Source: Chlorobiaceae bacterium
GTDB lineage: Bacteria; Bacteroidota; Chlorobiia; Chlorobiales; Chlorobiaceae
Assembly: GCA_013335115.1 (NCBI GenBank)
Contig: JAAXWQ010000003.1
Location: forward strand, 62,001 to 126,000
Length of the DNA: 64,000 nt
Reading direction: 5' to 3'
Shown here: positions 47,932-50,383 of the stretch, piece after piece
Position numbering within the stretch: the stretch's first letter is position 1
Layout: each line of letters opens with the position of its first letter
Notes under the pieces: model-generated
The model's database searches: none
The model's input: the letters and a program-made list of their open reading frames with translations, nothing else
Told to the model about the DNA's origin: nothing
Program-made: the position numbers and the translations under genes

Positions 47932-48159
47932 ATGTACTGGAATCTCGACCTTGCCCGATATATCGCAGACGCACCATGGCCTGTGACCAGGGAAGAACTG
48001 ATCGACTATGCAAACAGGACCGGCGCTCCCCAGCAGGTTGTCGACAACCTGATCGACCTGCCCGAGAGCGACGAGCTCTATGAAAGCCTCGAAGAGATCT
48101 GGCCGGATTATCCTACCGATGAAGATTTCGGATACGGCGATGAAGAACCGTTAACGTAA
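47932..48159 (+). CDS. Small acidic DUF2795 protein
   Basis: A 75-residue soluble protein with the DUF2795 pattern: WPVTREELIDYANRTGAPQQVVDNLIDLPESDELYESLEEIWPDYPTDEDF. It is predicted helical and strongly acidic at the C-terminus. The family is found in many bacteria without known function. It lies between an M23 peptidase and an outer-membrane assembly-type protein on the same strand. Confidence 0.85.
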   Translation: MYWNLDLARYIADAPWPVTREELIDYANRTGAPQQVVDNLIDLPESDELYESLEEIWPDYPTDEDFGYGDEEPLT

Positions 48160-48171
48160 GCCACGGGCATC

Positions 48172-50383
48172 ATGTTTTTTTTTTAGGCTGACCGACCTTT
48201 CCAGGGCGGCATGCATACTCCTCCTTGCCTGCATCGCCATGCTGCCCGATGCGATCGAGGCAAAGACATCCGTCCCCACCGCGGTCGGCAGCATCAGCAT
48301 CAAAGGCAACAAGGCCATCACCACCGATGAGATAAGGAGCATCATGCTCACCTCCACGAGCAGTTCGTTCCTCGGGACGGGCCTGTTCGGCGGTGCGACG
48401 CGCCCGTTCAGCCAGGAGGACTTCGAAAAGGATGTCAGCCTGATCAGGAAACTCTACGCATTCAAGGGCTACTTCTCGGCCGCAATCGACACGACCGTCG
48501 TGCGCAGGGTTGACCGACAGAAGGTCGAACTCCTCATCCGCATCCGAGAAAACCGGCCGTCACGCATCGATACGGTGACATTCGCAGGGCTCGACAGCAT
48601 CCCCGCAGAACTCCGAACCCGCTATGTCACACGAAGCCGGATCAAGGTGAAGGATGTATTCACCGTCGAGAACCTCATCCTGGAGCGCGACCGGTCGCTG
48701 GAGTTCTTCAGGGAGCACGGCTATGCGCTGTTCCATCCCGACAGCGTCCGGATCAAGGTCGACACGGTCGGCCTGAACGCAGGCATCCACTACCGCATCA
48801 GCCTCCCGGGCAAAGTTGCCTATGGGCCGGTCAACGTCGTCGTCCACGACCCTGTCAGGAAAGACGACGCGGCAACGGCAAGGAAGGTCGTCAAGGATGG
48901 CATGTCGGTCACAATCTACGGCCGCCAGAAGCTCAACGACGGCATCTTCATCCATTCCCTGGCGTACCACCCGGGCGTGTCGACGAAGTATTCGCTCGAA
49001 CAGAGGACGTTGCAGAACTTCGGGGCGACGAACCTCTTCTCATCCATATCCATCGAGAACGACTCGCTGAAGGCGGGGAAACTCTACACCACCGTCCACC
49101 TCCTTCCGGGCCCGAAGCACCTGATCGAACCAAAGCTCCTGGTGGATAACCGGTACGGACCCCTGTTCGTCGGCAGCTCGCTCGCCTACGAGAACAGGAA
49201 CCTTTTCGGCGGCGCCGAACAGTTGCGAATTTCAGCAGATTACGGTACCCAGACCACCACGAAGAACAACCTGGTGGGCAACATGACGGACGACCAGTAC
49301 GACCATGCACGACTGTACAACATGAGCCTCAAGGCCAACCTGTCGATGCCGGTCCTGAAAAGGCAGGGCGCCATGACGAGCACGACGGCCGAATACTCGC
49401 AATCGACGCTCCCCGTGCTGCTCCAAAGCAGGAAAGAGCTCTTCAGGGCGAGTTACAGCACCCCGCTCAGCCGGTACTCGAGGCTCAATTTCGACTTCTT
49501 CGAGATCGAGATCGCCCAAAAGGACTCGCTCAGGGGATTCAGGCAACTGTTCAAATCCCAGCTCGCCAAAAATATCGGAATCGACCCCACCAAAGACGAT
49601 GCTGTCAACAGGGGCATCGACAGCCTCCTGCAACGGAGGATCAGCCAGATATTCCGGCTGCGCTACGACTATTCGAACCGCAACGCCCCTGCCTGGCAGA
49701 GGAAGACGGTCTGGAACATCGGCGCCACTGCAGAAGAGTCCGGCAGCCTCTTCTGGCTGGTCGACAAGTACATCGACAAATCGAGCCATCCCGGCTTCAT
49801 CGACGACGATCCGCAGATCTTCGGAACGGCATACTCCCAGTACCTCAAACTCGATACCCAGGTGGCCTTCTCGAGCCAGGTCGCCCAGGACCGCCAGGTC
49901 GCCGGGAGGATCAACCTTGGCTGGATGAGCCCCTACGGCAAATCGAACACCACCCCGGAAGAGCACCGCTTCTACGCCGGCGGCTCGAACAGCATGAGGG
50001 GGTGGCTCTTCAACACCCTCGGGCCCGGCAGCAGCGCGAGCAAGGCCGCCTCGAACTTTGGCGCCGATATCAAGCTCGAGCTCGGCATGGAGTATCGCAT
50101 GACGCTCTTCAAATTCCTCGGCCAGCCGTCAGGAGTCACCCTGTTCTCCGACATCGGCAACATCTGGGACCGCAAGGGCACCTATGCCTTTTCGCTCGCT
50201 TCGCTCCAGCGCGACTTCGCCTGGGACGCCGGCGCAGGGTTGCGCGTCGGCTCCCCGATCGGGCCGTTCAGGTTCGACTTCGCCTGGAAGCTGCACGACC
50301 CGGCAGCTCCAGAGCCCTGGCAGATTTCAAACTGGAACCTGAAGGATGTGACCTTCAACTTCGGCATCGGCGAGGCTTTTTGA
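48172..50383 (+). CDS. BamA/TamA-like outer-membrane protein; start out of frame by a T10 tract
   Basis: An Omp85-superfamily protein with N-terminal POTRA-like domains (SISIKGNKAITTDEIRSIM; SRIDTVTFAGLDSI) and a C-terminal beta barrel with the lid-lock-like GGSNSMRGW near the end, finishing in a C-terminal Phe (GIGEAF) as outer-membrane proteins do. It would insert or translocate other envelope proteins. An in-frame ATG exists at 48239 (714 residues) but falls inside the signal peptide. The upstream frame encodes RLTDLSRAACILLLACIAMLP, a signal sequence with a possible lipobox LLAC. The only ATG before it (48172) is followed by ten T and is one base out of frame; nine T would give MFFFRLTDLS. 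The 5' end is therefore uncertain. Confidence 0.8.

Follow-up and report, generated by a model that had tools for sequence, protein, structure and literature searches.

A conserved out-of-frame T tract at the start codon of a TamL/TamA-like Omp85 gene in Chlorobiaceae, a probable site of transcriptional slippage

In green sulfur bacteria, a TamL/TamA-like gene of the Omp85 family opens with a start codon and roughly ten T in a row, which leaves almost every copy out of frame, so that the protein would probably be obtainable only if RNA polymerase stutters on the run. We compared gene starts among 84 Chlorobiaceae genomes (one per species) and found a start codon 0–6 codons before an unbroken T9–T11 run in 47 of them. 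With 47/84 genomes sharing it at one and the same position, this arrangement is far beyond chance. In the window (the whole 64,000-nucleotide stretch of DNA analyzed here) the tract is a T10 (Table 1), which we consider a probable programmed transcriptional-slippage site at the start codon that would set the expression of the TamL/TamA-like protein.

Table 1. Features around the start of the Omp85-family gene (window coordinates).
Feature	Position	Strand	Remark
Zero-frame start codon ATG	48172..48174	+	ATG, GTG or, once, TTG here in 47 Chlorobiaceae species
T10 tract (candidate slippage site)	48175..48184	+	T9–T11, unbroken in 47/47 tract-bearing species
Zero-frame stop TAG abutting the tract (MFFF-stop)	48184..48186	+	Immediate in 36/47 species
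Signal-peptide n-region RLTDLSRAAC in the Omp85 frame, abutting the tract	48185..48214	+	Open and net positive in 47/47
Signal peptide, hydrophobic core and end (ILLLACIAMLPDAIEA)	48215..48262	+	ATG 48239 lies inside and would halve the signal peptide
Omp85-family ORF (POTRA + barrel), TamL/TamA-like, as placed by the start-codon caller	48239..50383	+	
DUF2795 gene	47932..48159	+	Ends 12 nt 5' of start codon ATG 48172

The gene start and gene identity in the window

The T10 tract is the longest homopolymer in the window (runner-up: 8), which has a GC content of 61%. The 2.1 Mb genome contains 38 T/A runs of at least nine bases, including three of ten bases; with the tract and an A10 in dnaX (see below), two of these three ten-base runs lie at conserved frame changes. 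The third, a T10, is located at G000:C22:27129-27138 (L077).

As the initial annotation had read it, ATG 48172 is followed by exactly ten T and then AGG, and the zero frame as written (ATG TTT TTT TTT TAG) encodes MFFF and stops. The signal peptide of the Omp85 gene is one base off this frame, and the prediction that nine T would join ATG 48172 to it proved correct (T9 in place of T10 would read MFFFRLTDLSRAACILLLACIAMLPDAIEA). The Omp85 frame is open from just past TAA 48152-48154, and between this stop and ATG 48239 it contains no ATG, GTG or TTG, as had been claimed for the opening of the signal peptide; the only in-frame near-cognates before ATG 48239 are CTG 48188 and ATA 48215. The description of 48172 as the only ATG in this region needs amendment: that codon is out of frame as stated, but a second ATG, likewise out of frame, is present at 48211. 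Judged from the sequence, the true coding region of the Omp85 gene begins at or before the tract and not at ATG 48239. The DUF2795 gene and the Omp85 gene are probably co-transcribed, and neither an intrinsic terminator nor a promoter was found near the tract on the + strand. Shine-Dalgarno matches 5' of the start codon were unconvincing (mean longest match 3.73 vs. 3.60 in shuffled sequence). A genome-wide habit of RTG-T9 starts was considered and rejected: the pattern is about as frequent as its reversed control, and the instances inspected elsewhere in the genome are not conserved out-of-frame starts.

The encoded protein matches the Pfam Omp85 (2.4e-38) and POTRA (4.4e-14) domains. The closest NCBIfam model is TamL (NF052279, 300.9 bits, below the cut-off of 400), whereas the BamA equivalog TIGR03303 scores 111 bits (under its cut-off of 297) and TamA 58 bits. 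The earlier label ‘BamA/TamA-like’ is too broad, as BamA is a separate gene of this genome (L172, TIGR03303 448 bits). Two more Omp85 genes exist besides BamA and the tract gene, and TamB is encoded at G000:C4:6998-8338 (PF04357, 1.4e-53). The signal peptide in the window ends in LLAC, and its cysteine is not conserved in relatives (e.g., G017, ILLLLFLAALPETL). Because the model cut-off is not reached and the lipoprotein cysteine is unconserved, we name the gene TamL/TamA-like and claim no TamL membership. It was found in all Chlorobiaceae genomes that are at least 90% complete, and the end of the DUF2795 gene is recognizable upstream of it in relatives. In Flavobacterium, TamL is essential and appears to be strictly regulated at the protein level (PMC12045153). 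The text of an OMV proteome paper does not name the TamL/TamA-like protein, and no report of the tract site was found in the open-access papers searched.

Tract, reading frame and start codons across Chlorobiaceae

The tract is T9 in four, T10 in 39 and T11 in four of the 47 tract-bearing species, and it is interrupted in none. In 46/47 its start codon and the Omp85 ORF are in different frames (sole in-frame species: G088, T11), counts that are not independent because the tract species share ancestry. Entry into the Omp85 frame takes one T more (or two fewer) in 34 species and one T fewer (or two more) in 12, including the window. On a tree of the Omp85-gene protein, built with the signal peptide excluded, tract-bearing species show seven or more changes of frame class, and in nearly all of these one out-of-frame state gives way to the other. 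The close species G012 (T10) and G011 (T11), for example, are one T apart and both out of frame. The comparison with related Chlorobiaceae that the initial annotation had proposed finds the tract retained; the results that it had named as refuting its reading did not arise, and several relatives lack an in-frame start even down to the equivalent of 48239.

In the Omp85 frame, no stop follows the tract in any of the 47 species, and a net positive n-region running into the hydrophobic core is present in all of them, whereas stops occur in 28 and 6 species in the other two frames. Mean n-region charge over the 47 species is +2.7 in the Omp85 frame vs. +0.7 and 0.0 in the others. No in-frame ATG, GTG or TTG exists within 18 codons 5' of the signal-peptide core in 35/47 tract species. 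Eleven tract species carry an in-frame ATG or TTG past the tract with a positive n-region, a possible start. For a clade of six species, we considered an in-frame ATT start and rejected it, given that an out-of-frame ATG 5–6 codons 5' of the tract fits all six better.

Species that lack the tract mostly have an ordinary start. An in-frame ATG, GTG or TTG within 18 codons before the core is found in 36/37 tract-less species, the start codon being GTG or TTG at the matching place, and such a start together with a net positive n-region in 35/37, compared to 11/47 tract species (Fisher p 1.4e-11, uncorrected for shared ancestry). A phylogenetically paired test of tract vs. ordinary start comprised five pairs and was not significant (p 0.25–1), with the predicted direction in most pairings, and the association therefore rests on about five tract losses. 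All losses are accompanied by a replacement start, with the exception of G005 (L021), which has neither a long T tract nor an in-frame ATG, GTG or TTG before the core (CACGGTTTTTTTGTCAGGCTGACC). As its loss from many Chlorobium species shows, the device is not indispensable. At L112, L120, L161 and other tract-less Chlorobium loci, an out-of-frame ATG lies four bases 5' of the in-frame TTG (ATGNTTG), which may be a decoy or a remnant of ATG-T10. In the sister family f2 (L028, L030), the open tamL-like ORF extends upstream across the DUF2795 gene, in a different frame, and no in-frame ATG, GTG or TTG precedes the signal-peptide core.

Transcriptional slippage and its alternatives

In the mechanism that we propose, RNA polymerase copying the ten template A would generate mRNAs with about 8–12 U, and ribosomes would initiate at AUG 48172. 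A faithful transcript would yield MFFF and then a stop, and a transcript with one U fewer or two more would give an Omp85-frame product whose signal peptide is complete. The default would be out of frame, with expression arising from the slipped fraction of transcripts, which would cap the level of the gene. Slippage itself, its efficiency and a purpose in low or adjustable dosage are what we infer from sequence comparison. Among the three meanings offered by the initial annotation, this one, programmed polymerase slippage, appears to fit best; phase variation is disfavored and sequencing error excluded.

Two hallmarks of slippage sites were found here: a conserved, unbroken A/T homopolymer of about nine or longer (47 species), and a conserved frame change with coding beyond the tract (46/47; n-region in 47/47). 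E. coli RNA polymerase slips on T7–T8 placed before an out-of-frame gfp, by insertion as well as deletion, at about 5–10%, and its slippage rises with tract length and prefers T over A (PMC6260861). Transcript insertions in E. coli and Buchnera likewise occur in A/T runs and increase exponentially with homopolymer length (PMC5574713).

The main rival is programmed ribosomal frameshifting, in which the ribosome would slip on UUU UUU UUU in the first codons to reach the Omp85 frame, and we consider it improbable. U_UUU_UUU heptamers are slippery and favor the −1 ribosomal shift needed in 34/47 species, but the 12 others that are out of frame, the window included, need the opposite direction, so that no fixed direction of shift is found. 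The zero-frame stop beside the tract in 36/47 species would suit frameshifting, whereas 11 species have no immediate stop. Seven U would suffice for it, yet 9–11 unbroken T are kept, and the fold around the tract is no better than shuffles (z −0.40, window only) where a downstream stimulatory RNA structure would be expected. Slippage by the polymerase is favored because the shift direction varies, the tract is pure with nine or more T, and some species lack the adjacent stop. In particular, both shift directions occur, which suits a slip on a homopolymer and does not suit directional ribosomal frameshifting.

Still less probable is a start at CTG 48188, ATA 48215 or ATG 48239, with ATG-T10 serving as a leader or decoy ORF. 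The in-frame CTG 48188 corresponds to TTG or ATG in some relatives, and a large tract-less Chlorobium clade has an in-frame TTG at this place; in many species, however, the homologous codon is not start-like, and about ten species have no ATG, GTG or TTG at all ahead of the POTRA domain. The signal peptide would be lost with a start at 48239, and any such start leaves the retention of the upstream start codon and T10 without explanation.

Phase variation, in which replicative slippage would toggle the gene between on (T9/T12) and off (T10) from cell to cell, is very unlikely, even though a homopolymer sits at the start codon of a surface-protein gene and tract length differs between close species (T10 to T11, G012/G011). 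Both states should then be common, with about a third of the species in frame, but only one of the 47 is, and the length is almost fixed at T10. The essentiality of TamL in Flavobacterium (PMC12045153) would also forbid an off state, if valid here. Finally, a sequencing or assembly error in the homopolymer can be dismissed in spite of the draft state of the source assembly (29 contigs), as the out-of-frame arrangement recurs in 46 species, including the single-contig genomes G003, G011, G016 and G020.

Dosage and comparison with known systems

One-base changes in long homopolymer runs are among the easiest mutations, yet the in-frame state is rare at the tract gene, which suggests selection for limited output, i.e., a dose limiter. 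The in-frame state was found in 1/47 species for this gene vs. 7/22 genomes for dnaX (Fisher p 0.001, uncorrected for ancestry). Lineages have switched between a one-T excess and a one-T shortage and have almost never come into frame, and they therefore provide a natural test of slippage as a selected dose limiter. We tentatively put forward the broader idea that selection holds a core outer-membrane biogenesis gene out of frame across much of the family, and that stuttering at the start codon, perhaps according to growth state or UTP, sets its dose; regulation of the tract gene by UTP or growth state is speculation.

Known programmed slippage sites lie inside genes and mostly yield products of different length. 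A conserved slippage site at the start codon, if true, would gate the protein as a whole. Because the first ORF has four codons only, such a site is easily overlooked by gene callers and frameshift finders, and the signal peptide of a gene gated in this way would be annotated in truncated form.

Homopolymer phase variation at start codons is known from Neisseria, Helicobacter and others. The Chlorobiaceae tract resembles it in lying near the start of a surface-protein gene, but differs in its near-constant length and the near absence of in-frame states. Reiterative transcription occurs at the pyrBI, codBA and upp promoters, and here, too, expression would be set by stuttering on a T run close to the 5' end. 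Those systems act at the transcription start, whereas the tract follows a translation start, 12 nt past the upstream gene, and no nearby promoter was found.

The nearest parallel is present in the very same genomes. Programmed transcriptional realignment has been proposed for dnaX of Thermus thermophilus (A9) and of Chlorobi (A7–A10) (PMC3711429). The source genome matches the Chlorobi report with an out-of-frame A10 in dnaX at G000:C25:77792-77801 (L185); the zero frame closes there after 9 codons, and one additional A opens 211. An A9 or A10 is present in all 22 genomes examined for dnaX. Both genes have an unbroken, conserved A/T run of 9–10 by a frame change, but dnaX slips in mid-gene and gives two useful products, whereas the tract stands at the start codon and its unslipped product would be a four-residue peptide. 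In the Shigella type III secretion genes spa13, spa33 and mxiE, the polymerase also slips on a homopolymer and changes the frame, although these sites are internal and give products of different length, without gating a whole protein at its first codons (PMC5009743). Out-of-frame poly(A/T) genes are similarly tolerated through polymerase slippage in Buchnera and Blochmannia, there as a side effect of the AT bias of reduced genomes (PMC3017870), in contrast to the conserved position described here, in a 61% GC window of a genome with no more than three ten-base T/A runs.
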